From Ascidia mentula (Eukaryota > Chordata > Ascidiacea > Phlebobranchia > Ascidiidae): DNA of 64,000 bases. Below are positions 38,601 to 53,983 of the stretch, in pieces (position 1 is the stretch's first letter; each line of letters begins with the position of its first letter). Where the stretch lies: contig OX387202.1 of NCBI GenBank assembly GCA_947561715.1, positions 930,001-994,000 of the forward strand. Direction: 5' to 3'. The position numbers and the translations under genes are program-made. Under the pieces are notes generated by a model, which was given only the letters and a program-made list of their open reading frames with translations, ran no database searches and had not been told where the DNA came from.

Positions 38601-41600
38601 AACAATTGCCGGGTCTGATAACTCACGGAGGTGGACTACTATTGCATAACAGAAAAAATTGATCACATTTGCATTGACACAGCAAATTCGGAGGTTTCGG
38701 AAAGGTTTTCCGCCAAACTGCCAGTCCTGGGGGATACAAACAGCCCTGGAGTGCGCCATAAACAGTTATGAGACATCTAATTCTGAATGCATTTTGTAGA
38801 AGAGGGTTATTGACTTTACTTAATGATAAATAAAGGGTACTCTCCGTGATTCATTTTTTCATAAAACAAACCTGTTAACCTTACCTATTTCTTTGAATGT
38901 GTTTATTTGACTTTAAAGTACTATTTTCTTTATTTATATTTGAATTTATTGCATAAGTGATTTTGTATATGTAGCAACATGCATGAACTGTCACTCATGC
39001 TCCTCATTTGGTGCCCATGTTTGTGTTAGAGTTGAGTTATCTACTTGTTAGCATGGGTTTGTTATATGTTTGTGTTAATGCTTATGATTTTATTTTATTT
39101 AAATAAGGTCTAATCTAATGATATAAACTGTGCACATGTGTGCATTTGGATCCTTTTGACTTTTAGAATAAGATAAATTTGGCTTTTTTAGCCAAAATGA
39201 TGTCCAACAGGGGACAATTGCTTCTGGGGAGCATTTAAAGTAGTTATATCAAATATAATTTTGACCAGAATTCCTAGACAAGGGTCGGGACTAACAGAAA
39301 ATTACAAATTGACCATACTTTCTGTGATTCCTTTTTCCACAAAATCCACCTCAATATTTGGGTAGTTTTTCAGATACATGTTCAACAGCACCCTGTTCCA
39401 ATTTACTGCCTGACTAATAACCTTGGAAACCACAGTAAAACTGCCCCAAACACGCTAAAAATCGACCAGAGGGATGTTAGTTGACAAAAAAAAACGCCAG
39501 TTAACAAAACTTTGAACGCAGGTTACTCGGCCACCTTACGGGGTAGCGCCATGATTTTTTCACACGATACAGATCATAGGCTGACCTTTCAAACGATATT
39601 ATGACATAAGTCGCGAAAACAAGTTTCGCTTCGCTAAATTTTAAAGCATAACATTCTACGCGCTAAACCCTTTCAAACGGTATCCAAACTTTTGAAAAAT
39701 TCGCTGGGGCTTGTGCAGAAAAATGAATTTATATTTTTGAAACATGAAAAAATATTGATTTTTCCTTAATAACTTTTTTTATCGTTATGGCCCAACTTTC
39801 AATTTACAACCATACGAAAGCTCAAAAATCAAGCTTTCCAAAAATATTAAACATGTCTAAAAACACATTGAGCTGCCGCTTTACGAGCCGAATACACTTC
39901 AACCCCACACCCCCCATTGTAAACACGGTTTGAGGGTGCTGCTCTGGTGCATACTTTCGCCGATAAATATTGCCACAAAGCGAGTCGCAAGCTTTTCTTT
40001 TGCACAAACAACCTTCTACCATCCCACTATCGAATGAAATCAAAGTTGAATCAATTCAGTCGAAGATGCTATGCTAAATGCAACGATTACTTACTCCAAA
40101 CCGACAGCCGCCCGCCGCACTTTTTAAACTTTTGCACAAAGAACCTTATACCATCCCACTATCGATCGCCCCTGGCAATTTTAAATCAATAATTATTGTC
40201 CGGACCTACTGGATCCTATGCCCCTAAACCTACACACAATCACATAGGCTGTTATGAACAGCCCAATATTGAAGGTGTCACTTAGTAGCAAATACCATGA
40301 TTCCATTTGAAAACAAACAAAACCTACATTCAAACCAAGGGTAACGGTGTACAACCAATATTGCAGTTTTAACAGAAATTTAGTTAAACACTATTATAAT
40401 TGCTGTTAAAGTGCAAGTGACACGGAAAAAATCAAACATACTAATAATTAAACTAAGAGATTGTCATAACTTTAAAATTTTTTTGCGAAAAAAGTAGCTT
40501 GATACGGCGACTAGATACAGCTGATCAAAGTCGCACTTTTACTGTAGCGACCAAAATCATGCGAAGCCTTATGCGTAGGAATGGAAAACATTGTAAAACT
40601 GGTTTAGCATAGTTTTGCATTAAACAGGGCACAACAAGTGAACAAGTGCAACAAACGGATTTTGATGTTAATTTAAGCTGAAGACAGATGGCCGCTGTTT
40701 CGACCTATTATGTCTTATTTAGTTGTGTAATAATAAACAGTTACTGGGACAGGGTGTTCTTGTTGTTACAGCATTTATGATCGCTAACGTGATACATGAA
40801 CTTTTTAAAACACGACAAAGACCAAGCGTCAATTTAGCATTGTCATTTTGTCCACTCACAGCAAAAGATTTTGAGTTTGGAAAAGGCCGAACAAATTAGC
40901 TGATTAAGCAACACAATAATTCTTTTATAGTACCATTTTTTTTCGACAGTAACGTTGCCTACGAGTTCGCGTCATATATGATTTACTTAATTCGCCAAAA
41001 TCAAGCACTAATGTTTTTTTCGCAATATAGTTCTAGAAATGTTGGAATCATCATATTAAAGTCAACACAAAGATGAGGTTATAGTTATGACATCACATCC
41101 AAAATGACTTCATGTAGTGTCACTGAGCAAAGGAACGCACCATTCCCGTCTTATCGAAGTACAGAGTTATGTCGTTTCTCCTATACCCTATAGATAATTA
41201 GGGACAAATAATCCTTTGGTTTGTGATGTCATTTTTGTGTGATGTAAAACCTTGTCCTGATCTTTGAGGTAACATAATCTGTGGATTCTCCTATGTTTGA
41301 AACTATCCGATATCTCCAATATAAGGCGCCTTGTCCCATCTAAACAATGCATTTTTTCGATGCGGGCACCTTGTGTGATGTAATTTCACCACAGCGCAAA
41401 AGGTTTACGATTTATGGCTGCCGCTACTTCTTGCACAGTTTTCTACATTTTTTGGTTGACGTAGAACTGAAAAAAACTGGATATATGTTTGTTGTAGATG
41501 TACCTTAATTTTATGCAAAGTTGCCATGGGCGTGTCATAAGCACTTTAATAAATGAAGAACACTCAAATTTGTTGTGATCCTAGAAAAGTTTAACATACA

Positions 41601-44600
41601 ACTTACTGGTTTCTTAAGTTGTGATATGGAATTTGCAATCTTACAGATTCCACCACTTGTCATCCAACAACCATTCAGAGACAGATTCTCAATCCACTGA
41701 ATACATGAAGCAATAGCAGATGCACTTTCATCATTAACTGTGTTCCAATCAAGATTCAATGACGTCATCTGAAACAAATGAAAAATTAAGGGAATCAGTT
41801 TTTGTCAACAATACCATTGTATCAATTGTGACATCACAGAGGCAGAACAATCACTTGATGAATTTGCTGAGCTCAGGTAGCTCAGTCAGTTAAAGAAAGA
41901 ACCCGAATTACACATGGCTTCAACTTAGTAACACGTTTGTGACTTTGGTCACAGTTATATGCATGCAATGCCATGATACAAAGTGACTGTGTTATGCTAT
42001 GGAAACTGAAACACATGTTTTGAGGTGGTAATTGTACATGTTTTATTTGGTTTTATGTTGAAGTGAGGTTAAAAACATATTTAGAAACAAATAAAAATAT
42101 GAATAAATACACATTTTCGTATTCAATAAAAATTGTAACAAAAATATTGTGTTTTTTAATAAAAAAGAAGTAGGAAGATGCCATCCTAAGTAAATTTTAA
42201 GCCATCCAATAATTATTGCTTGGGAGTCCAGACCTACTAGATCCCAATCTCTACAACTTACTGGTTTCTTAAGTTTTGATATGGAATTTGCAATCTTACA
42301 GATTCCACCACTTGTCATCTTACAATTCCGCAGAGACAGATTCTCAATCCACTGAATACATGAAGCAATAGCAGATGCACTTTCATCATCAAATGTGTTG
42401 TAATCAAGATTCAACGACGTCACCTGAAACAAATTAAAAATTGCTGAAATCAGTTTTAATGTCAACAATATCATTGTATCAATTATGACATCACAGAGGC
42501 AGAACAATCACTTGGTGAATTTAATCTTTGAGCCATGGTAGCTCAGTCAGTAAGAGAAAGAATCTAAATCACACATGGCTCCAGCTTACTCACATGTTTG
42601 TGACTTTGGTTACAGTTATATGCATGTAATACCACGAGACAAGGTAACTGTGTTATGCCATGAAAACTGAAACACATGTTTTGAGGTGGTACATGCACCT
42701 GTTTTATTTGGTTTTATGTTGAAGTGAGGTTAAAAAAATATTTAGAAACAAATAAAAATATGAATAAATACACATTTTCGTATTCAATCAAAATTGTAAC
42801 AAAAATATTGTGTTTTTAAATATAAAGTTGCCCGCTGCAAGTAAATTTTAAGTTAGTCAATAGTTATTGCTTGGGAGTCCGGACCTACTGGATCCCACTC
42901 TACTAAACCTGCACACAACCTTATATGTTGGTGTCAATAGCTTAATATGTACGGGTTTTAACAACAAATACACTGTTTCCATTTAAAAACAAACATAGCC
43001 TACATTTAAACCATGGGGTGCACAACCAGCATTGCAGTTTTAACACAAAATTTTTTAACTTATTAAAAATACTTCTGTGTTTAAACGATTGTAAATCATC
43101 CAAGTGTGTCGTGACCCTAAAAATTTTCGGAAACCACTGGTCTAACATACAACTTACTGGTTTCTCAAGTTGTGATATGGAATTTGCAATCTTACAGATT
43201 CCACCACTTGTCACCTTACAACGCTCCAGAGACAGATTCTCAATCCACTGAATGCATGAAGCAATAGCAGATGCACTTTCATCATCAAATGTGTTCCAAT
43301 CAAGATTCAACGACGTCATCTGATACAAATGAAAAATTGCTGGAATCAGTTTTTATGTCAACAATTCATTGTATCAATTATGACATCACAGAGGCAGAAC
43401 AATCACTTGGTGAATTTAATCGTTGAGCTCAGGTTGCTCAGTCAGTAAGAGAAAGAAACTGAATTACACATGGCTCCAACTTAGTAACACCTTTTGTGAC
43501 TTTGGTCACAGTTATATGCTTGGAATGCCACAAGACAAAGTAACTGTGTTATGCCATGAAAACTGAAACATATGTTTTGCGGTGGTACATGTATCTGTTT
43601 TATTTGGTTTTAAGTTGAAGTGAGGTTAAAAAAATATTTAGAAACAAATAAAAATATGAATAAATACACATTTTCGTAAACAAACAAAATTTTTGTGTTT
43701 TTCAGGATAAAGCAGCCCAATTCAAGTAAATTTTAAGCCATCCAATAATTATTGCTTGGGAGTCCGGACCTACTGGATCCCACTCCCCTAAACCTTCACA
43801 CAACCTTGTATGTTGGTATCAACAGCTTAATATGTAGGGATCTGAACAGCAAATAAACTGGTTGTTTTTAAAAACAAACATAGCCTTCAATTAAACCATG
43901 AGGTGTGCAAGCAGCATTGCAGTGTTAAAGCCGTATTTCACAATGAAATCATGAAAATTGAGCTTTAGAGGTCTTTCGCCTTCATACACCTGGTGACAGT
44001 TTCTCTTGTTTGCCAAAAACAATTGCCGGGTCTGATAACTCACGGAGGTGGACTACTATTGCATAACAGAAAAAATTGATCACATTTGCATTGACACAGC
44101 AAATTCGGAGGTTTCGGAAAGGTTTTCCGCCAAACTGCCAGTCCTGGGGGATACAAACAGCCCTGGAGTGCGCCATAAACAGTTATGAGACATCTAATTC
44201 TGAATGCATTTTGTAGAAGAGGGTTAGTGACTTTACTTAATGATAAATAAAGGGTACTCTCCGTGATTCATTTTTTCATAAAACAAACCTGTTAACCTTA
44301 CCTATTTCTTTGAATGTGTTTATTTGACTTTAAAGTACTATTTTCTTTATTTATATTTGAATTTATTGCATGAGTGATTTTGTGTACGTGGCAACATGCA
44401 TGAACTGTCACTCATCCTCCTCAGTTGGTGTTAGTATTTCTTTGTGTTAGAGTTGAGTTATCTACTTGTTAGCCTGTGTTTGTTATATGTTTGTGTTTAT
44501 GCTTTATGTTTTGATTCTATTTGAATAAGGTCTAATATAATGGTATAAACTGTGCACATGTGTGCATTTGTTGGATCTATTGACTTCAAGATTAAGATAA

Positions 44601-47600
44601 GTTTTCATGGTAGCAGAGGATGGTTAAAAGGTCGCCACCAAAGTTTAACAATGACTTGCCATATTCTAATTGGAAGAATGAAGTTGGAATGTGGCAACTG
44701 GTCACTGATGTTCCCAAGAAGGAGCAGCTGTTGTAATTTTGGAATCATTTGATGGCAATTCCAAGGCAGAAAGAGCTGCTTCTGAACTTAGAACTGAATT
44801 TATACACAATGATAATGGAATGGAGCGCTTGCTCGCTTACATAGACCTTGCCTTCAAAACTGAAAAGGTGGATGATGCATATTCTGCATATACAAATTTT
44901 ACAAGCTTTTCCAAAAAAGCAGGTATGTCAATTAATGATTATATCTAAGAGTTTGAACACTTGCACCATCGGCTAACATTGCATGACATGAAACTGCCAG
45001 GAGGAATCTTATATTGGTGGATCAAAGTTTCTTACAAAGAGAAACACTTTTAAAAGTGCTTTGAAAAGTAAACAAAATCCTCCTGATAAATTGGGCCGTC
45101 CCACTAGATGTAGGATTTGTGATTCTATCATGCATTGGGCACCCACATGTCCTCATAAAGATGGGACACACTGTGTGAAAGAACTGACAAAAGATGTTGG
45201 TGTGGAGCAATGTGAAGAAGTGGAGATAATATTGGCTACTGGCCTGTCTTCCAATGAAATTTTTGTAGTGGAATCTTCATGCTCAGCTATTTTGGACACT
45301 GCTTGCACAAAGACTGTGTGTGGTAAATCTTGGTTTGATGGGTATTGTAAAAAATTAACTGACCGTCTTAAAAATAAAATCAAAATCATTAACCAGCAAT
45401 CTATCTTTCAGTTTGGAGGTGGTAAAAAGATAATCTCCTTGAAGCAAGCCGTAATTCCTGCTTTTATTGCTGGAAAGAGTTTATCTATTAGAGTGTGTAT
45501 TGTACCGTCAGAAATCACTCCTTTGTTGAGTAAAGCATCTTTGAAAAAGGCATCAACTCAACTTGACTTATCTCAAGATAAAGTGACAATGTTTGGTAAA
45601 AAGATTCAAATTCATTTGACCAGCAGTGGTCACTATTGCATTGATATTTTACCTAGAGAAAGTGTTGATATCCTGATATTGGATAATTTATCTCCAGATG
45701 AAGCTCTAAAGTGCATGAAGAAGTTACATGCTCAATTTGGACATGCGCCAGAAGAAAACTTGTTGAAATTATTGAAATGTGCAAAGGCGTGGAAAGATGA
45801 TTTTTATGCAGTAATCTGTAATGTGATTCAAGATTGTGAAGTTTCTGCTTTACACAAACGTCCTGTTACAAGACCCGTAGTTGCACTTCCCTGGGCAAAT
45901 GATGTAAATGAAACTGTAGCAATGGATTTACATGAAATTGAGCCCAGTTTGTGGTATTTCCATATGATTGATTTGTTCTCACGGTTTAGTTGTGCTGTGA
46001 TTATAAGAAACAAGTCTGCTTCAGTCATTGTAAAAAACTTTTTGAAATATTGGGTAAGCATTTTTGGTGCCCCAAAGAATGTACTGAGTGACAATGGCAG
46101 AGAATTCAATAGCCAAGAATTCAGAGACATGTGTTCTAGGTTTGCAATTGAAGTAAAAACCACCCCTGCATACTCTCCATGGAGTAATGGTGTTTGTGAA
46201 AGACACAACATGATTATCACAGATATCTTGCAGAAGATCAAGCTTGATACAGGATGTGATTGGGACACGTGTCTTGCCTGGGCACTTTCAGCTAAAAACT
46301 CACTCGTTGACAACAATGGATTAAGTCTCAGTCAGATTGTTTTTAGAAGCAATCTAAGACAACCTTCTATTTTTACAGACGACCTTCCAGCTTTAGAAGA
46401 AGGCTACGGTACTGTTGGGTCGGATCTGTCAGTCTTGCATGCAGCAAGGAAAAAATTTATGGCAGTTCAAACCTCAGAAAAGGTTGGGATGGCTTTGCGT
46501 AAACAAACACGCCAAACTGGGCAAACTTACAACATTGGAGATCATGTCCTTTATAAACGAGATGATCAGGCATGATGGAAAGGACCTGGCAAAGTTTTAG
46601 GACAAGATGGAGCAGTTATTTTTATTCGGCATGGTGGGCAATTTGTTAAAGTTAATGTTTGTCGAGTGCAGTCCGTGCACAACAAAGTGATTAGACAGGA
46701 GTCTGGTGAACACCTTACACCACCAAGTATACCTCCTATCAGATACGATAAAGAAGATTCAAGTGCAGATGAAGACCCTGAGCCACAAACGTCAACACAA
46801 GAACCAACAGTTAACAGAAACAGACCATTGGGTAAAAGCCTCCTATACAGGAATGTAAGTTTTTCTAATTTGGATGGCGTCGATTGTACTGCAAAAGTGT
46901 TGAGTAGAGCTGGAAAGGCAACCGGAAAATACAAAGAATACATTTAACACTGAATTCATTACTCCTGGCAATCTAGCTGGAAAAACAACATGGGTTAATT
47001 TTGAGCATGGGTTAAAGTAAATGATTTGTCGGTGATGCCAGAGAAAGTTGAAGTTGTGGATGAAGTTTATAATTGTGATGTTTCTTTTCAAACAGCAAAA
47101 AAAAGAAGAACTGGAAAGCTGGAAATGAAATGGTGTTTATGAAGTTGCACCCAAGAAAAATCAAAAGTGCATCTCTGTGCGGTGGGTTTGCACAATAAAA
47201 GAAAATGAAAATGGAGTAAGGCTAAAAGCTAGGTTAGTTGCAAGGGGATTTGAGGAAACCAATACGGATTCACTTGATAGGGAATCACCAACTTGTTCCA
47301 AAGAAACCTTATGAGTTATTCTGAGTGTGGCAATACAACAGAAATGGGAAATTAATTCAATTGACATAAAAACTGCGTTTCTACAAGGGAAAATATTAGA
47401 CAGGGATATGTTTATTAAACCTCCAAAAGAAGCAAATTGTTCTGTTAATGTTATTTGGAAGCTAGTAAAATGTGTTTACGGCTTAGTGGATGCTTCTAAA
47501 TCCTGGTACCGAAGAGTTAAACAATTTATGCTTAATCATGGTGGCAAAATGAGTGTGCTGGACCATGCAATATTTTACTGGCATAATGGTCAGGTCCTTC

Positions 47601-50600
47601 ATGGATTTGTTTGCGTTTACGTGGATGATTTTCTGTGGGCTGGTTCAGTTGATTTCCAACTAACCATCGTCAAAGAAATTAGAAAGACGTTTTGCATAGG
47701 TAAAGAAGAAAATCAGCATTTTACATACATTTGATTAGAATTGAAACAGGATCAAGAAAGCATTTTATTAAGTCAATCCGTCTATGTCATAAACTTTTTG
47801 GAAATTCCCATATCATCTCAACGAAAAAAACAACTTTCTGATGAACTCACACAAGAAGAAAGGGATATTTTGTGGTCAAAAATTGGACAACTTCTTTGGC
47901 TTGCAACTCAAACTAGACCAGATTTAAGTTTCGATGCTTGTGTTTTAGTTACAAATATAAAAAAATTCTGTAGTCCGGGACAAAATAATTCAGAATTCGG
48001 TATTAATTTGAAATATTCTAATCTTGGAAGCAACTCCTCTTTGAAAATTTTTGTATTTACTGATGCAGCATTTGCAAATCTTTCTGATGGAGGAAGTCAA
48101 GTTTTGATACAGCATTTTTTCTTGCGTCTTTATGGAATGAAGTGTTATTTGGGAACTACAAACTGCCTTGCTTGCCAATTTATTTGACTTTTCTTTCAAG
48201 TACTATTTTCTTTATTTATATTTGAATTTATTGCATAAGTGATTTTGTATATGTAGTAACATGCATGAACTGCCACTCATGCTCCTCATTTGGTGCACAT
48301 GTTTGTGTTAGAGTTGAGTTATCTACTTGTTAGCATGGGTTTGTTATATGTTTGTGTTAATGCTTATGATTTTATTTTATTTAAATAAGGTCTAATCTAA
48401 TGATATAAACTGTGCACATGTGTGCATTTGGATCCTTTGACTTTTAGAATAAGATAAATTTGGCTTTTTTAGCCAAAATGATGTCCAACAGGGGGCAATT
48501 GCTTCTGGGGAGCATTTAAAGTAGTTATATCAAATATAATTTTGACCAGAATTCCTAGACAAGGGTCGGGACTAACAGAAAATTACAAATTGACCATACT
48601 TTCTGTGATTCCTTTTTCCACAAAATCCACCTCAATATTTGGGTAGTTTTTCAGATACATGTTCAACAGCACCCTGTTCCAATTTACTGCCTGACTAATA
48701 ACCTTGGAAACCACAGTAAAACTGCCCCAAACACGCTAAAAATCGACCAGAGGGATGTTAGTTGACAAAAAAAACGCCAGTTAACAAAACTTTGAACGCA
48801 GGTTACTCGGCCACCTTACGGGGTAGCGCCATGATTTTTTCACACGATACAGATCATAGGCTGACCTTTCAAACGATATTATGACATAAGTCGCGAAAAC
48901 AAGTTTCGCTTCGCTAAATTTTAAAGCATAACATTCTACGCGCTAAACCCTTTCAAACGATATCCAAACTTTTGAAAAATTCGCTGGGGCTTGTGCAGAA
49001 AAATGAATTTATATTTTTGAAACATGAAAAAATATCGATTTTTCCCTAATAACTTTTTTTATCGTTATGGCCCAACTTTCAATTTACAACCATACGAAAG
49101 CTCAAAAATCAAGCTTTCCAAAAATATTAAACATGTCTAAAAACACATTGAGCTGCCGCTTTACGAGCCGAATACACTTCAACCCCACACCCCCCATTGT
49201 AAACACGGTTTGAGGGTGCTGCTCTGGTGCATACTTTCGCCGATAAATGTTGCTACAAAGCGAGTCGCAAGCTTTTCTTTTGCACAAACAACCTTCTACC
49301 ATCCCACTATCGAATGAAATCAAAGTTGAATCAATTGAGTCGAAGATGCTATGCTAAATGCAACGATTACTTACTCCAAACCGACCGCCGCACTTTTTAA
49401 ACTTTTGCACAAAGAACCTTATACCATCCCACTATCGATCGCCCCTGGCAATTTTAAATCAATAATTATTGTCCGGACCTACTGGATCCTACGCCCCTAA
49501 ACCTACACACAATCACATAGGCTGGTATCAACAGCCCAATATTGAAGGTGTCACTTAGTAGCAAATACCATGATTCCATTTGAAAACAAACAAAACCTAC
49601 ATTCAAACCAAGGGTAACGGTGTACAACCAATATTGCAGTTTTAACAGAAATTTAGTTAAACACTATTATAATTGCTGTTAAAGTGCAAGTGACATGGAA
49701 AAAATCAAACATACTAATAATTAAACTAAGAGATTGTCATAACTTTAAAATTTTTTTGCGAAAAAAGTAGCTTGATACGGCGACTAGATACAGCTGATCA
49801 AAGTCGCACTTTTACTGTAGCGACCAAAATCATGCGAAGCCTTATGCGTAGGAATGGAAAACATTGTAAAACTGGTTTAGCATAGTTTTGCATTAAACAG
49901 GGCACAACAAGTGAACAAGTGCAACAAACGGATTTTGATGTTAATTTAAGCTGAAGACAGATGGCCGCTGTTTCGACCTATTATGTCTTATTTAGTTGTG
50001 TAATAATAAAAACAGTTACTGGGACAGGGTGTTCTTGTTGTTACAGCATTTATGATCGCTAACGTGATACAAAACATGACAAAGACCAAGTGTCAATTTA
50101 GCATTGTCATTTTGTCCACTCACAGCAAAAGATTTTGAGGTTGGAAAAGGCCGAACAAATTAGCTGATTAAGCAACACAATAATTCTTTTATAGTACCAT
50201 TTTTTTTCGACAGTAGCGTTGCCTACGAGTTCGCGTCATATATGATTTACTTAATTCGCCACAATCAACCACTAATGTTTTTTTCGCAATATAGTTCTAG
50301 AAATGTTGGAATCATCATATTAAAGTCAACACAAAGATGAGGTTATAGTTATGACATCACATCCAAAATGACGTCATGTAGTGTCACCAGGGGCGTATCC
50401 AGGAATTTTTAAAGGGGGGGGGTCCAAATTTTTTAGGGAATTCCCCGATTTTCAGGTATAAACTAAGGTTAATTGTGGGCGAGAATCGCAAAATACGAAC
50501 GCCGGTGTTCGCGCCAATCGTTATATAAACGGTGGCTTTCTGGCTTGCGCAATTGTGTAACGCTATGGAACACTCGATGTGAGGTTTTGCCGTATAGTGT

Positions 50601-53600
50601 TTGCGCCGTAGTGTTATTACTACTGCTTTCAAAGTTTAACAACTAAACTAATTGACTTTCACGCAAGTAAACCGCTTGTCATTGCAACGTGGCCACTGAA
50701 TAACGACGTTTCGTCCGTAAACTGACCTTTGTTTCGTAACAATGCAACATGTTTGGTAACAATGTCAAGTGTTCGGTAACAATGCTCCCTGTTTGGAAAC
50801 AATGGCGAATGCAAGCACGATGCGGTTTTCAGGTCAACGTTAAAGAAAATTTCTGGTTTTCATGCGGATTTTGACAAAAAAATACAGTGGCGTTTGTTTA
50901 GTTATCAAAAAAGACCAAAATATATCACAAAAGGGGGGGGTCCGGACCCCTCGGACCCCCCCCCTGGATACGCCCATGAGTGTCACTGAGCAAAGGAACG
51001 CACCATTCCCGTCTTATCGAAGTACAGAGTTATGTCGTTTCTGCTATACCCTATAGATAATTAGGGACAAATAATCCTTTGGTTTGTGATGTCATTTTTG
51101 TGTGATGTAAAACCTTGTCCTGATCTTTGAGGTAACATAATCTGTGGATTCTCCTTTGTTTGAAACTATCCGATATCTCCAATATAAGGCGCCTTGTCCC
51201 ATCTAAACAATGCATTTTTTCGATGCGGGCACCTTGTGTGATGTAATTTCACCACAGCGCAAAAGGTTTAAGATTTATGGCTGCCGCTACTTCTTGCACA
51301 GTTTTCTACATTTTTTGGTTGACGTAGAACCGAAAAAAACTGGATATATGTTTGTTGTAGATGTACCTTAATTTTATGCAAAGTTGCCATGGCCGTGTCA
51401 TAAGCACTTTAATAAATGCAGAACACTCAAATTTGTTGTGATCCTAGAAAAGTTTAACATACAACTTACTGGTTTCTTAAGTTGTGATATGGAATTTGCA
51501 ATCTTACAGATTCCACCACTTGTCATCCAACAACCATTCAGAGACAGATTCTCAATCCACTGAATACATGAAGCAATAGCAGATGCACTTTCATCATCAA
51601 CTGTGTTGTAATCAAGATTCAACGACGTCATCTGAAACAAATTAAAAATTAATGGAATCAGTTTTAATGTCAACAATATCATTGTATCAATTATGACATC
51701 ACAGAGGCAGAACAATCATTTGGTGAATTTAATCATTGAGCTATGGTAGCTCAGTCAGTAAGAGAAAGAATCTCAATTGCATATGGCTCCAACTTAGTCA
51801 CACGTTTGTGACTTTGGTTACAGTTATATGCGCGGAATACCACGAGACGAAGTGACTGCGTTATGCTATGAAAACTGAAACATATGTTTTGCGGCTGTTT
51901 TATTTGGTTTTAAGTTGAAGTAAGGTTAAAAAAATATTTAGAAACAAATAAAGATATGAATAAATACACATTTTCGTATTCAATCAAAATTGTAACAAAA
52001 ATATTGTGTTTTTAAATATAAAGTTGCCTGCTGCAAGTAAATTTTAAGTTAGTCAATAGTTATTGCTTGGGAGTCTGGACCTACTGGATCCCACTCTCCT
52101 AAACCTGCACACAACCTTATATGTTGGTGTCAATAGCTTAATATGTACGGGTTTTAACAACAAATACACTGTTTCCATTTAAAAACAAACATAGTCTACA
52201 TTTAAACCATGGGTGTACAACCAGCACTGCAGTTTTAACACAAAATTTTTTAACTTATTAAAAATACTTCTGTGTTTAAATGATTGTAAATCATCCAAGT
52301 GTGTCGTGACCCTAAAAATTTTCGGAAACCACTGGTCTAACATACAACTTACTTGTTTCTTAAGTTGTGATATGGAATTTGCAATCTTACAGATTCCACC
52401 ACTTGTCATCTCACAATCCGTCAGAGACAGATTCTCAATCCACTGACTACATGAAGCAATAGCAGATGCACTTTCATCATCAACTTTGTTCCCGTCAAGA
52501 TTCAACGATGATATCTGAAACAAATGAAAATTTGCTGAAAATAGTTTTTATGTCAACAATAGCATTGTATCAATTATGACATCACAGAGGCAGAACAATC
52601 ACATGGTGAATTTAATCGCTGAGCTCCCGTAACTCAGTTAGTTAGAGAAAAAACCCAAATTACACATGGCTTCAACTTAGTAATAAAGTCTAATAGCTTA
52701 AATTACAAGGAATAAACAAACATGTCAAATATATATTTTGAATTGTCCATTGTAATAGGTTTTTATTAGGGGGTAGAAATAGCATAAATATCCAGGCAAT
52801 TTCCTATTTTGTGATATTGCATTACTGTACTACAAACTATTCATTCCTGCATATGATTTATTTTTGCCATAAAACACGGGTTGTTAACTGCGTTATGAAA
52901 ACCAAAAACTGAAAGCATGTTTTGTGGTGGAGTGTCGTGACCCTAAAATGTTTGGAAATCACTGGTCTAACATACAACTTACTGGTTTCTTAAGTTGCGA
53001 TATGGAATTTGCAATCTTACAGATTCCACCACTTGTCATCTTACAACCCCGCAGAGACAGATAATCAATCCACTGAATACATGAAGCAATAGCAGATGCA
53101 CTTTCATCATCAACTTTGTTCCCGTCAAGATTCAACGATGATATCTGAAACAAATGAAAATTTGCTGGAAATAGTTTTTATGTCAACAATATTATTGTAT
53201 CAATTATGACATCACAGAGGCAGAACAATCACATGGTGAATTTAATCGCTGAGCTCCCGTAACTCAGTTAGTTAGAGAAAAAACCCAAATTACACATGGC
53301 TTCAACTTAGTAATAAAGTCTAATAGCTTAAATTACAAGGAATAAACAAACATGTCAAATATATATTTTGAATTGTCCATTGTAATAGGTTTTTATTAGG
53401 GGGTAGAAATAGCATAAATATCCAGGCAATTTCCTATTTTGTGATATTGCATTACTGTACTGCAAACTACACATTCTTGCATATGATTTATTTTTGCCAT
53501 AAAACGCGGGTTGTTAACTGCGTTATGAAAACCAAAAACTGAAAGCATGTTTTGTGGTGGAGTGTCGTGACCCTAAAATGTTTGGAAATCACTGGTCTAA

Positions 53601-53774
53601 CATACAACTTACTGGTTTCTTAAGTTGCGATATGGAATTTGCAATCTTACAGATTCCACCACTTGTCATCTTCCAATTCCCCAGAGACGGATTCTCAATC
53701 CACGGAATACATGAAGCAATAGCAGATGCACTTTCATCATCAACTGTGTTCTCATCAAGATTCAACGATGACAT
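14519..53774 (-). CDS. NLR-type receptor: LRR exon array, ZU5-UPA (FIIND-like), RHIM-like tail; 5' end not found
   Basis: Minus-strand exons with GT-AG borders can be chained from 53774 to 14519: twenty 162-bp LRR exons, four three-exon LRR cassettes, two divergent LRR exons (17805-17644, 17561-17439), ZU5 (17255-17094, 16746-16636, 16229-16132), UPA (16043-15861, 15316-15085) and a tail (15002-14939, 14646-14519). All LRR exons are phase 0 and the later phases match at each join. The LRRs are of the ribonuclease-inhibitor type found in NLRs; the LRR then ZU5-UPA order matches NLRP1 (LRR-FIIND) or PIDD. An intracellular sensor is the natural inference. No NACHT or N-terminal effector domain was seen. 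Only one ZU5-UPA module exists in the window, which favours one giant gene over many, but fused tandem paralogues are possible. Exon calls need transcript support. Confidence 0.6.
14939..15002 (-). CDS. NLR linker exon after UPA
   Basis: A 64-bp exon (EDTMRQISSAHPESQRPLPNK) between acceptor TTTTTTTGCAG and donor GTATGA. If the donor is not used, the frame continues to a stop at 14823 with a strongly hydrophobic tail (Ile/Phe/Leu-rich), giving an alternative membrane-anchor-like end. Splicing to 14646 keeps the frame and is preferred. Confidence 0.5.
15085..15316 (-). CDS. NLR exon: UPA domain, second half
   Basis: Acceptor TTTCTTTAG, donor CAA/GTAAGA, 232 bp. It begins with one base that completes the Arg codon of the previous exon, giving LR-SDENEAKLTLGSETG. 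The beta-rich sequence (VTFSKNQIKLVHVF, VDVNLDF, NFIVDVN) fits the second half of a UPA domain. Confidence 0.65.
15861..16043 (-). CDS. NLR exon: UPA domain, first half
   Basis: Acceptor TTTGTTCACAG, donor AAG/GTGAAC, 183 bp. Joined to the previous exon it reads HFTW-FHVITETIFGWSK, then KFLICDNLELN. This is the order expected after the processing-site region of ZU5-UPA modules. Phases match on both sides. Confidence 0.6.
16132..16229 (-). CDS. NLR exon: end of ZU5 with HFT motif
   Basis: Branch-point-like CTAACAAC, acceptor TTAAG, donor TTG/GTAAGT, 98 bp. It encodes VETSQDSETWEDCQTLF and ends KITFEVTHFTW. The HF-T triplet stands where FIIND and PIDD proteins cut themselves between Phe and Ser; here the following residue is Thr. 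Confidence 0.65.
16636..16746 (-). CDS. NLR exon: ZU5 middle part
   Basis: Acceptor TTCCACAG, donor ACA/GTAAGT, 111 bp, phase 0 at both ends. It encodes ITPLFYCGPSGLKFTKDV then TITLPTCF, an excellent match to the ZU5 signature (PLVxCGPxGLxFxxPVxLxLPxC). Confidence 0.85.
17094..17255 (-). CDS. NLR exon: ZU5 first part
   Basis: Acceptor ATTTACAG, donor AGC/GTATGT, 162 bp, phase 0. It encodes VGVEGGKLEVMGCVVDIPPK, the first ZU5 strands (GGxLxxxxxxVxIPxxAL). Same length as the LRR exons, but unrelated in sequence. Confidence 0.85.
17439..17561 (-). CDS. NLR last LRR exon
   Basis: Acceptor TTGTTTAG, ATGTTGTTTCTTGATCTGAG, donor AAG/GTAGAA, 41 codons. MLFLDLRSNDLTDESAESLA is a good LRR; the second repeat is degenerate (KIVELFVDKLMDSFRWK). 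It joins in phase to the ZU5 exon. Confidence 0.65.
17644..17805 (-). CDS. NLR divergent LRR exon
   Basis: A 162-bp exon (acceptor TTATTCAG, donor TCT/GTAAGA) encoding MRKLDLSGNKIGDSGAAALA and IAELGLDKCGIGDEVVEIL. It is closer to the general NLR LRR consensus than to the amplified array and may represent the ancestral pair. Confidence 0.75.
18074..18144. repeat. 71-nt intronic hairpin
   Basis: Arms 18074-18098 and 18120-18144 pair at 23 of 25 positions (core AGAAACTTTCGTTT / AAACGAAAGTTTCT, perfect) with a 21-nt loop. It sits in the NLR intron between 19048 and 17805. The size is in the range of a miRNA precursor, but a foldback repeat is equally possible. Confidence 0.6.
19048..19209 (-). 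CDS. LRR array exon 1 (3'-most)
   Basis: 162 bp, CAG/ATGACG to CCA/GTAAGT. First repeat LNLDWNAVDDKSA, second LSLRGCKMTSGG. The following intron (19210-19600) has its only close relative near 53775-54600, at the far end of the array. Confidence 0.85.
20169..20486 (-). other. Conserved intronic block of cassette 1
   Basis: A 318-bp frame (106 codons with stop; MQNACIQNCATTVCP) whose sequence recurs near 25540-25750 and 36190-36420, upstream of the other cassettes. The frame is interrupted in the 25.6-kb copy, so it is probably duplicated intron and not an exon. Confidence 0.4.
20526..21315 (-). CDS. LRR cassette 1 (three exons)
   Basis: Exons 21315-21145 (171 bp, MECLDISGNLVSKSLISSIM...), 20943-20890 (54 bp, MLAKKEDMTTMFVDSVFE) and 20681-20526 (156 bp, IDSIPNQLTVNGDEEALALS). 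All are phase 0 with GT-AG borders; the first donor, GTTACC, is weak. The third exon has LRR-like strands (LELTMGNINGNAIQEVAAAI). Lies between arrays of 162-bp exons. Confidence 0.65.
21814..21975 (-). CDS. LRR array exon 2
   Basis: 162 bp, phase 0. LNLDYNTVDDDGASA and LSLRDCKMTSGG; Tyr at the exposed first-repeat position. The distance to the next exon upstream is 652 bp, shorter than the usual 886. Confidence 0.85.
22082..22135 (+). other. tRNA-like relic in the repeated intron
   Basis: GGTAGCTCAGTTAG matches the tRNA A box and, about 25 nt on, AACACGAATCAC resembles a decayed B box. Similar sequences occur once per intron unit (near 27120, 30725, 37990, 41875 and 42535), so this is a SINE- or tRNA-derived relic carried along by exon duplication. 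It is not a functional tRNA gene: no full cloverleaf is present. Confidence 0.4.
22466..22627 (-). CDS. LRR array exon 3
   Basis: 162 bp, phase 0. LNLDCNTVDDESA and LSLRDCKMTSGG. The 3' end reads SQLTKPVCC, with donor CCA/GTATGT instead of GTAAGT. Confidence 0.85.
23351..23512 (-). CDS. LRR array exon 4
   Basis: 162 bp, phase 0. LNLDRNKVDDESA and LSLRYCKMTSGG; Arg and Tyr at the exposed positions, and GICEVANS in place of GICKIANS. Confidence 0.85.
24237..24398 (-). CDS. LRR array exon 5
   Basis: 162 bp, phase 0. LNLDCNTVDDESA and LSLRDCKMTSGG; same exposed residues as exon 3, one 886-bp unit from exon 4. Confidence 0.85.
25076..25482 (-). mobile_element. Possible solo LTR, copy 1
   Basis: A 407-bp block that on the minus strand starts TGTTAATACT and ends GTTGCTACA (TG...CA). 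It interrupts the intron unit where another LRR exon would be expected. An equally long, nearly identical block lies at 35734-36140 with the same flanks, so it was carried by a block duplication. No target duplication is evident, hence the low confidence. Confidence 0.3.
25800..26590 (-). CDS. LRR cassette 2 (three exons)
   Basis: Exons 26590-26420 (MESWDISGNLVSKSQLPLIM...), 26218-26165 (TLAKKEDITTKFVDSVFE; begins with Thr, so no internal ATG start) and 25955-25800 (IDSIPNQLTVNGDEEAFAFS). Phase 0 throughout. The block with the upstream LTR-like piece matches 35.5-37.6 kb. Confidence 0.65.
27741..27902 (-). CDS. LRR array exon 6
   Basis: 162 bp, phase 0. LNLDCNTVDDESA and LSLRGCKMTSGG. Confidence 0.85.
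28624..28785 (-). CDS. LRR array exon 7
   Basis: 162 bp, phase 0. LKLDCNTVDDESA and LSLRVCKMTSGG; Val at the second exposed position is unique in the array. Confidence 0.85.
29415..30204 (-). CDS. LRR cassette 3 (three exons)
   Basis: Exons 30204-30034 (MECLDISGNLVSKSQLPLIM...), 29832-29779 (TLAKKEDITTKFVDSVFE) and 29570-29415 (IDSIPNKLAVFGDEEACALS). Phase 0. The third exon is the most divergent of the four copies. The conserved intronic block of the other cassettes is missing here. Confidence 0.65.
31353..31514 (-). CDS. LRR array exon 8
   Basis: 162 bp, phase 0. LNLDCNTVDDESA and LSLRGCPMTSGG; Pro in place of Lys, and GICKIVNS in place of GICKIANS. Confidence 0.85.
32239..32400 (-). CDS. 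LRR array exon 9
   Basis: 162 bp, phase 0. Starts MSSLNLDCNTV; second repeat LSLRYCKMRSGG. Confidence 0.85.
33125..33286 (-). CDS. LRR array exon 10
   Basis: 162 bp, phase 0. LNLDGNTVDDESA and LSLRGCKMTSGG; Gly at the exposed first-repeat position. Confidence 0.85.
34012..34173 (-). CDS. LRR array exon 11
   Basis: 162 bp, phase 0. LNLDWNTVDDESA and LSLRGCKMTSGG. Confidence 0.85.
34897..35058 (-). CDS. LRR array exon 12
   Basis: 162 bp, phase 0. LKLDGNTVDDESA and LSLRDCKMTSGG. Fifth member of an unbroken run spaced 885-887 bp (31514 to 35058). Confidence 0.85.
35734..36140 (-). mobile_element. Possible solo LTR, copy 2
   Basis: Second copy of the 407-bp TG...CA block at 25076-25482, in the same position relative to an LRR cassette. 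It differs at only a few positions, so the block duplication that copied it is fairly recent. Confidence 0.3.
36458..37247 (-). CDS. LRR cassette 4 (three exons)
   Basis: Exons 37247-37077 (MESLDISGNLVSKSQLPLIM...), 36875-36822 (MLAKKEDMTTMFVDSVFE) and 36613-36458 (IDSIPNQLTVFGNEEPFALS). Phase 0. Lies 5' of array exons 8-12 and 3' of exon 13. Confidence 0.65.
37723..37884 (-). CDS. LRR array exon 13
   Basis: 162 bp, phase 0. LNLDWNTVDDESA and LSLERCKVTSGG. The ERCKV variant is shared only with exon 16 (43319), marking the 3' ends of the two large duplicated segments. Confidence 0.85.
38908..39176 (+). mobile_element. Solo LTR of Ty1/copia element
   Basis: A single LTR at the exact site where the second segmental copy holds a complete LTR-interior-LTR element. 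It resembles the 3' LTR (48185 on) more than the 5' LTR. The simplest history is insertion before the duplication, then LTR-LTR recombination here. The exact 3' border is not resolved. Confidence 0.75.
39180..40200. repeat. Dispersed repeat, copy in duplication 1
   Basis: About 1 kb directly after the solo LTR, containing AACAGCACCCTGTTCCAATT, CAGTAAAACTGCCCCAAACA and GGTTACTCGGCCACCTTA. Related sequence recurs at 48460-49460 (segmental copy), in inverted orientation inside the 836-bp elements near 54950 and 56840, and near 61590. No coding capacity is recognised; the minus frame at 39822-40043 is probably by chance. Confidence 0.5.
40200..41606. other. Non-coding part of segmental copy 1
   Basis: Starts with intron-like sequence of the LRR units (CGGACCTACTGGATCC). 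The rest is unique to the two segmental copies, with no frame or motif recognised. It holds the empty site of the hAT MITE (single AGTGTCAC at about 41116-41123). Confidence 0.5.
41607..41768 (-). CDS. LRR array exon 14
   Basis: 162 bp, phase 0. LNLDWNTVNDESA and LSLNGCWMTSGG. The NGCWM variant is shared only with exon 17 (51631). Confidence 0.85.
42262..42423 (-). CDS. LRR array exon 15
   Basis: 162 bp, phase 0. Begins VTSLNLDYNTFDD (GTG instead of ATG, which shows these ATGs are internal residues and not starts); second repeat LSLRNCKMTSGG. Confidence 0.85.
43158..43319 (-). CDS. LRR array exon 16
   Basis: 162 bp, phase 0. LNLDWNTFDDESA and LSLERCKVTSGG; partner of exon 13. Confidence 0.85.
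44325..44607 (+). repeat. 5' LTR with spliced-leader-like sequence
   Basis: Starts TGACTTT and ends TTTTCA next to the primer site. It contains a TATA-like TTATATG (44483-44489) and, 30 nt further, ATTCTATTTGAATAAG (44514-44529) followed by GT. The palindrome TGCACATGTGTGCA follows. The other two LTR copies have a diverged version of the 16-mer but keep the palindrome. Confidence 0.85.
48185..48457 (+). repeat. 3' LTR of the copia element
   Basis: Aligned with the 5' LTR from TATTTGACTTT to AGAATAAGATAA. It is closer to the solo LTR at 38908 than to its own 5' partner. Confidence 0.8.
48460..49460. repeat. Dispersed repeat, copy in duplication 2
   Basis: Segmental counterpart of 39180-40200 with only scattered differences. 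Confidence 0.5.
50388..50978. mobile_element. hAT-type MITE, 591 bp
   Basis: Terminal inverted repeats CAGGGGCGTATCCAGG and CCTGGATACGCCCATG (15 of 16 pairing) are flanked by 8-bp direct repeats AGTGTCAC (50380-50387 and 50979-50986). The paralogous segment at about 41116-41123 has a single AGTGTCAC, the empty site. An 8-bp target duplication is typical of hAT transposons. The interior has no transposase; it carries four tandem 20-bp units of the type TGTTTGGTAACAATG (about 50727-50806). Confidence 0.95.
51470..51631 (-). CDS. LRR array exon 17
   Basis: 162 bp, phase 0. LNLDYNTVDDESA and LSLNGCWMTSGG; partner of exon 14, but with Tyr at the first exposed position. Confidence 0.85.
52353..52514 (-). 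CDS. LRR array exon 18
   Basis: 162 bp, phase 0. ISSLNLDGNKVDDESA, CSQWIENLSLTDCEM and SQLKKQ. It starts with ATA (Ile), so initiation here is excluded. Confidence 0.85.
52983..53144 (-). CDS. LRR array exon 19
   Basis: 162 bp, phase 0. ISSLNLDGNKVDDESA and IDYLSLRGCKM. Exactly 630 bp from exons 18 and 20, in a second, younger tandem unit with its own intron sequence. Confidence 0.85.
53613..53774 (-). CDS. LRR array exon 20 (5'-most found)
   Basis: 162 bp, phase 0. MSSLNLDENTVDDESA and CIPWIENPSLGNWKM; the second repeat is the most divergent (Pro in the strand, Trp for Cys). The acceptor CAG is present, so at least one more exon lies upstream, but none was recognised. Confidence 0.8.
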
Positions 53775-53983
53775 CTGAAATAAGTGAAAAATTAATGGAA
53801 CTAATTTTTATGATGCAGATACTATCAAGGACAAACCCAAATAGATTCGATGAATGGTAGCCAAGTTTTAATATTCATGGACAAATATTTATTAGAGCAT
53901 AAAATGATAGTTGTGTTATATAGCAGTGAAGTTAATGTGTTTTATCAAATCATCTATAATGATATGACACTGCTACTAACACT

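Follow-up and report, generated by a model that had tools for sequence, protein, structure and literature searches.

Introduction

Traces of spliced leaders (SLs) at mobile elements and retrogenes are already known from flatworms and dinoflagellates. In parasitic flatworms, leader fragments are described at repeated mobile elements, chiefly LTR and LINE elements (597 discarded loci), and the authors of that work suggest that the fragments may stem from retrotransposons with trans-spliced transcripts (PMC12582326). The same origin was proposed for six leader-bearing mobile elements of S. mansoni (PMC5832876). In the passages of the two reports that deal with these loci, the leaders are partial, were set aside, and are given no position in the element (PMC12582326, PMC5832876). 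Dinoflagellate retrogenes contain DinoSL relicts that arose via reverse-transcribed trans-spliced RNA (Slamovits and Keeling 2008, cited in the review PMC6050394); according to this review, tandem relicts reflect repeated rounds of the process, and a promoter role of the relict is discussed (PMC6050394). In C. elegans, RNA of the LTR element Cer1 is trans-spliced to the host SL1: the short spliced mRNA occurs with and without SL1, and the 8-kb genomic RNA is not trans-spliced at that site; the pertinent sections of the report make no mention of SL1 in the LTR DNA (PMC3315495). For the Echinococcus TRIM element, a transcript started in the LTR and the leader are regarded as competitors for an acceptor (PMC4558846).

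Here we analyze the window, a 64,000-nt stretch of the Ascidia mentula genome in which the DNA of an LTR contains a leader, together with the 195.8-Mb assembly (79 contigs) that holds it. In contrast to the flatworm loci, the leader is complete and exact, lies in paired LTRs of two superfamilies at a putative U3/R border, occurs in stacks, and is preceded by a cap-type G at dispersed sites. In contrast to the dinoflagellate host genes, the carriers are LTR retrotransposons, in which strand transfer has to restore the leader in each of the two LTRs. A search of the open literature (titles and abstracts, with subscription literature mostly outside its coverage) returned no report of a leader in tunicate LTRs.

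Results

A copia LTR in the window contains the complete spliced leader

The first-pass annotation of the window had placed a complete Ciona spliced leader in a retrotransposon LTR, and both parts of this claim held. The 5' LTR (44290..44607, forward strand) is 318 bp long, has TG...CA ends, and shares its start with the family copies L013, L014, L016, L021, and L025. It is directly followed by a primer-binding site (44608..44625, +), which we take to be the complement of the 3' end of initiator tRNA-Met. Downstream lie an open stretch with an integrase domain (44992..46575, +; rve, Pfam PF00665, 6.2e-15), in which CCHC-knuckle-like and protease-like stretches were recognized by eye 5' of the integrase, and a piece of copia reverse transcriptase (47315..47734, +; RVT_2, Pfam PF07727, 1.3e-19). 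Because the integrase precedes the RVT_2 reverse transcriptase, the element was assigned to copia. The TG...CA LTR, the tRNA primer site, this domain order, and a 5-bp target duplication (GCAAA around the solo window-family copy L025, and another around the family F pair described below) are the features of Ty1/copia elements. The window element is degraded and its coding stretches are broken. Its partner LTR (48179..48461, +; 86% identity) contains a leader decayed to ATTTTATTTAAATAAG at 48374-48389, with 14 of the 16 bases kept. A third LTR copy (38873..39180, +, start inferred from the alignment), with a 14/16 leader at 39092-39107, lies in a duplicated block (38683-39180 versus 44100-44604, 93% match). 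Two regions of tandem repeats, 41569-43961 and 51432-53874, have open stretches on the minus strand that resemble leucine-rich repeats (recognized by eye), close to a block whose duplicates are spaced about 9.3 kb apart.

Within the 5' LTR, the exact 16-nt exon ATTCTATTTGAATAAG occupies 44514..44529 (+; LTR positions 225-240) and is identical to the spliced leader published for C. intestinalis (PMC7986045). Three further features were found where the annotation had put them: a TATA-like TATATGT (44484..44490, +; 6/7 to TATAWAW) that begins 30 nt 5' of the leader, a GT directly 3' of it (44530..44531, +; the window reads GTCTAA), and a hairpin-capable palindrome, TGCACATGTGTGCA (44553..44566, +). 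The 5' end of the RNA probably lies at the leader, as also proposed, and we infer that the exon at 44514..44529 is the start of R in the window LTR, since a cDNA ending at the cap would place it there. Absence of the 16-mer from other LTR copies had been named as a finding that would refute the annotation's reading. Of 29 similar stretches, 24 span the site, and 5 of them (window included) hold the exact leader. The rest are altered, 7 being one base off, 5 having a 6-nt insertion, and 7 being worse.

The LTR leader is the exon of the genome's own SL, not an SL RNA gene

The exact 16-mer occurs at 2157 sites in the assembly, and its reversed pattern at 0 sites in the whole 195.8 Mb. At 1661 of the 2157 sites the sequence continues with GTAAGCATC, and the first 100 of these, the ones that were listed, all lie on one contig (C1) as a tandem array with a unit length of about 720 bp; we regard these units as putative SL RNA genes. 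The genome's own leader is therefore the same 16-mer, and the possibility that the leader of this species differs from that of Ciona can be dismissed. The SL RNA genes of Ciona likewise have this 16-nt leader and are repeated, with a unit of 264 bp in C. intestinalis versus about 720 bp here (PMC7986045).

The other 496 sites continue differently: 146 with GTB, 241 with A, C, or T, and 86 with GA, GC, or GG, the last 23 being known by subtraction. GT thus follows the leader at 169 of the 496 sites (23 of the 169 by subtraction). Variant SL genes are among these 496 sites: L133, L134, L135, and L158 are SL-gene-like units at 15.4-16.0 Mb of C1, with upstream sequence as in the array units and with the GT donor replaced by GC or one G absent. 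Others (L139, L146, L147, and L203) are dispersed and SL-RNA-like, reading SL followed by GCAAGCATACG... or TAAGCATCATACG...; they begin at leader base 1 and differ from one another in upstream DNA, and are likely SL RNA retrocopies or a repeat derived from SL RNA.

As one origin of the LTR leader, the annotation had suggested that the element may have captured an SL RNA gene, which became its R region. Such a capture at the DNA level, which would bring in promoter and R region together, agrees with the GT that follows the leader in the window LTR. The array units, however, read ...CCGGC, then the leader, then GTAAGCATCACG, and no similarity to the LTR flanks, compared by eye, was seen on either side, so that homology ends with the 16-nt exon. 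Base -1 is C in 11/11 array units read, versus G at 29 of 48 dispersed sites (see below). The consensus 5' splice site expected after the leader of an SL RNA gene is missing from the window LTR, where GTCTAA, a poor 5' splice site that varies between groups, stands in place of the GTAAGC of the arrays. Nor is GT a constant donor: in entire sets of LTR copies, the leader is followed by GA, GC, C, T, or A instead. The hairpin, which had been compared with the 3' stem of an SL RNA, is local to the window LTR family: among all fetched non-array sites, at least 13 of its 14 bases follow the leader only in four window-family copies, and it is altered in the family copy L013. Hence, unlike the Ciona SL loci, the LTR leader is not an SL RNA gene, and we rejected capture of one as hardly credible.

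The shared unit has the edges of the mature exon, and a G often precedes it at dispersed sites

The unit shared by the LTR groups coincides exactly with the mature exon at both ends, the flanks of the SL genes being absent. In the LTR flanks read, the downstream edge of the leader is the splice junction, without SL RNA intron bases. To examine the upstream edge, we used 132 different non-array sites for which 40 nt of sequence had been fetched to either side. They form a non-random sample picked from lists, and 10 occurrences close to slice ends were left out. At 48 of the 132 sites the upstream DNA is unrelated, having no 10-mer in common with any other site. Base -1 is G at 29 of these 48 (P = 1e-11), the background frequency of G in their upstream DNA being 0.167, and no rise of G was found at -2 to -15. 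On reaching the cap, reverse transcriptases often append a single C opposite it, which gives a G before the first RNA base. The SL genes themselves have C at this position; the G excess is the trace expected from a reverse-transcribed, capped, leader-headed RNA.

Many of the 48 sites represent one kind of short repeat, and 18 share one downstream group. One such repeat begins at leader base 1 in unrelated upstream DNA at L071, L163, L185, L192, L202, and L206, and short repeats starting in this way at unrelated places would fit retrocopies of leader-headed RNA. In the groups with a common upstream flank, G is the commonest base at -1 in 9 of 14 (P = 0.0003, family F being a near-tie), and in 5 of 11 (P = 0.04) when related groups are merged and F is omitted. 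Family A, with C in 9/11 copies, and family B, with T in 5/5, are counterexamples. The -1 trace within LTR groups may thus be called suggestive only.

Several dispersed short repeats (L071, L150, L163, L172, L175, L180, L185, L192, L201, L202, L206, and others) have the leader as their exact beginning, followed by CTGANGA-hairpin-GAAA with all four bases represented at N. This arrangement was observed at 16 of the 48 sites, many of one family, versus 0.03 in shuffled sequences, and presumably resembles a hammerhead ribozyme core. An Rfam search of 14 loci with or beside dispersed repeats (including L007 and L072) and one array locus gave no hammerhead match. These repeats are possibly leader-headed ribozyme retroelements.

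An exact exon and a cap-linked G would also be produced if the reverse transcriptase jumped from the 5' end of the element RNA to the leader of an SL RNA or host message, without trans-splicing of the element. The dispersed SL-RNA-like copies L146, L147, and L203 fit such template switching. The downstream edge at the splice junction, with the SL RNA intron bases absent from the LTR groups, speaks against it, although this argument is weakened because sites were found by the whole 16-mer and shorter leader edges would escape. We consider template switching quite improbable.

Exact leaders lie in LTRs of copia and BEL/Pao elements

The element survey covered copia and BEL/Pao. Exact leaders sit in the LTRs of nine groups, some of them related, from these two superfamilies, and often in both LTRs of an element. 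By Pfam domains, groups C and F are copia and groups A, B, D, E, G, H, and M are BEL/Pao. The latter were recognized by DUF5641, DUF1759, or H2C2 domains beside the LTR, which we take to be BEL/Pao markers. Pfam matches assign F to copia and A (L060), B (L062), D, and E to BEL/Pao; G, H, and M adjoin DUF5641 matches, M being a single copy. Groups K and L, also BEL, hold the leader at 15/16 and 14/16. Independent origins must be fewer than nine, because H and E have related U3 ends. The automatic grouping of the flanks of the fetched sites gave several LTR sets without apparent relationship beside the leader; it is rough, B and D being joined via wider flanks and B and C via one 10-mer.

Leader pairs spaced 4.5 to 6.7 kb apart show LTR structure. 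The family F pair has 397-bp LTRs that are 99.7% identical, with the leader at position 252 and the target duplication GCATA, and the family E pair has 578-bp LTRs with the leader at position 177 and the target duplication GCCAG. In family D, the 521-bp LTRs of L056/L057 have the leader at position 182 and no clean target duplication, and L052/L053 share a 557-bp match with the leader at position 217. The base after the leader varies between groups and inside D, E, and F.

Several other features were seen near LTR leaders. A branch-point-like ACTAA lies 5' of the leader in a few groups (a post hoc observation on few independent groups, given no weight as evidence). A short intron-like stretch lies 3' of it in the BEL LTRs of L054/L055 (E; CG|GTAAGT...AACTAG) and L056/L057 (D; CG|GTAAGG...CACAG); GTAAGT is also present in slices past the leader-free BEL elements L092, L094, and L109. 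Long hairpins formed by inverted copies are centred on or beside the leader at L027:2584-2730, L174, L162, and L138.

Exact leaders exceed chance beside BEL elements, and most BEL matches on four contigs do without one

To count leaders beside elements, we used DUF5641, which we take to mark the 3' end of BEL pol; the order of Pfam matches in the annotated BEL loci is consistent with this. The DUF5641 search scored 150 of 341 candidates, and the counts were made on four contigs (C1, C2, C52, and C67), whose exact-site lists are complete except for the 23 sites known by subtraction. An exact same-strand leader lies within 1500 bp downstream of 18 of the 72 BEL matches on these contigs, whereas in 200 sets of positions displaced by between 50 kb and 2 Mb the mean count was 0.18 and the highest 2. 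A same-strand leader lies within 9 kb upstream of 15 of the 72, and 14 of these 15 belong to the 18 with a downstream leader. Five of the 8 copia matches on the four contigs (13 copia matches genome-wide) carry a nearby exact leader. A chance match in AT-rich LTRs, to which the AT-richness of the leader itself would lend some credit, was ruled out as having practically no probability, given 0 sites for the reversed pattern versus 2157 and 18/72 versus the expected 0.18.

The exact downstream leader is absent from the other 54 of the 72 BEL matches on the four contigs. When 20 slices 3' of BEL matches were inspected, 2 had an exact leader, 3 had 13-15/16, and the remaining 15 matched no better than shuffled sequence. 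Of the 20, 14 came from the four contigs and were all negative for an exact leader, and 6 came from contigs with incomplete site lists or none, both exact ones being on contigs with incomplete lists. In the BEL element L100 the leader has decayed to 13/16 beside a 1984-aa open frame. Because of this element and the 54 BEL matches, the leader is probably optional for element spread.

These counts bear on the annotation's suggestion that the LTR evolved a mimic of the leader, in which transcription would begin at leader base 1 without trans-splicing and selection would keep the sequence for translation or for the look of a host message. An encoded mimic agrees with the TATA-like box that the window family has at -30, and ATTCT, which we assume to fit the initiator consensus, was counted in its favour. 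In families E and A, moreover, the closest copies mostly have the exact leader: among the best-scoring copies on the four contigs it is present in 23/26 (E) and 13/19 (A), in searches whose queries held the leader and in which 40/151 and 40/85 candidates were scored. Copies of the window family, E, and A found via LTR similarity are less biased than others, yet their queries contained the leader; since most copies were gathered by exact match, conservation of leader versus flank is unusable as a test.

A TATA-placed start, however, fits the window family and fails as a rule: of 14 flank groups, only C and J have a 6/7 TATA match at -36..-24, and it is lacking in 12. The 14 include K and L as well as J and I, the latter two being candidate LTR groups. 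The 54 BEL matches and the decayed leader of L100 likewise count against an encoded mimic, which by itself would not account for leaders at dispersed repeats whose upstream DNA is unrelated. A role of the mimic as leader donor is opposed by the inconstancy of the necessary GT. Altogether, we regard an encoded mimic as unlikely.

Leaders occur in stacks

In four groups the leader is found singly or in tandem. Family D reads SL-TTGCTG or SL-G-TTGAATAAG-TTGCTG, and family F reads SL-ACATAT or SL-G-TTATATTTGAATAAG-ACATAT (L050). Group H has one unit in L132, two in L131, L140, L141, and L144 (inner unit 15/16), three in L088, and three plus a piece in L089; group I has one unit in L157, L199, and L200 and three in L152 and L198. 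These stacks resemble the tandem relicts of dinoflagellates (PMC6050394). Both marks of a relict are thus found here, a leader exon in DNA that ends at the splice junction and tandem relicts (D, F, H, and I); the window copy has no tandem relict. Stacks of the form SL-G-SL' may record repeated rounds in which a leader was written in, or slippage, and plain tandem duplication or slippage could account for them. A truncated or worn leader lies 5' of an exact one in L136, L177, L205, and L207, an order that goes against the simple prediction that the newest leader is outermost.

Discussion

We propose, with a probability of roughly 0.6, that the LTR leaders were written in by reverse transcription of trans-spliced element RNAs. 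This origin is favoured because the leader is the exact mature exon, occurs in two superfamilies, is preceded by a cap-type G, and also heads dispersed repeats. In this scheme, U3 would drive transcription of an element pre-RNA, and the host would join the capped leader to an acceptor close to the start of R. The first cDNA would then reach the cap, often with one C added opposite it, and would transfer to the 3' LTR, where the leader would supplant the end of the old sequence. The resulting LTR would read U3-(G)-SL-R-U5, and R would begin with the 16 nt of the leader. In the old copy in the window, the leader is most likely a relic of reverse-transcribed trans-spliced RNA.

Several points count against the writing of leaders into LTRs in this manner. 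AATAAG presumably makes a weak 3' splice site. No leader-free sibling displaying the ancestral acceptor was found among the loci examined. The scheme would need extension of a cDNA end that is mismatched to the 3' LTR, which appears to be a gap in it. The stacks with a worn upstream leader, the weak -1 trace in the merged LTR groups, and the contrary bases in A and B were also counted on this side.

A further proposal, which we put forward only tentatively, is that trans-splicing defines R: the genomic RNA of these copia and BEL elements would take its 5' end from the host leader, with the ...AAG of the LTR leader as acceptor, and the leader would be renewed in each round without a scar. In that case, a precise start site would be unneeded, and read-through transcripts entering the LTR would be trimmed to full-length genomic RNA.

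Strand transfer requires the same R at both RNA ends, and a trans-spliced 5' end should therefore break an LTR element; elements that carry a leader in their DNA would solve this mismatch of R. If they do solve it in this way, host RNA processing would help to set where retrotransposon LTRs have their borders, the leader would be a genomic tag of reverse-transcribed capped RNA in tunicates, and the LTRs of any tunicate genome could be searched for the leader of that species.
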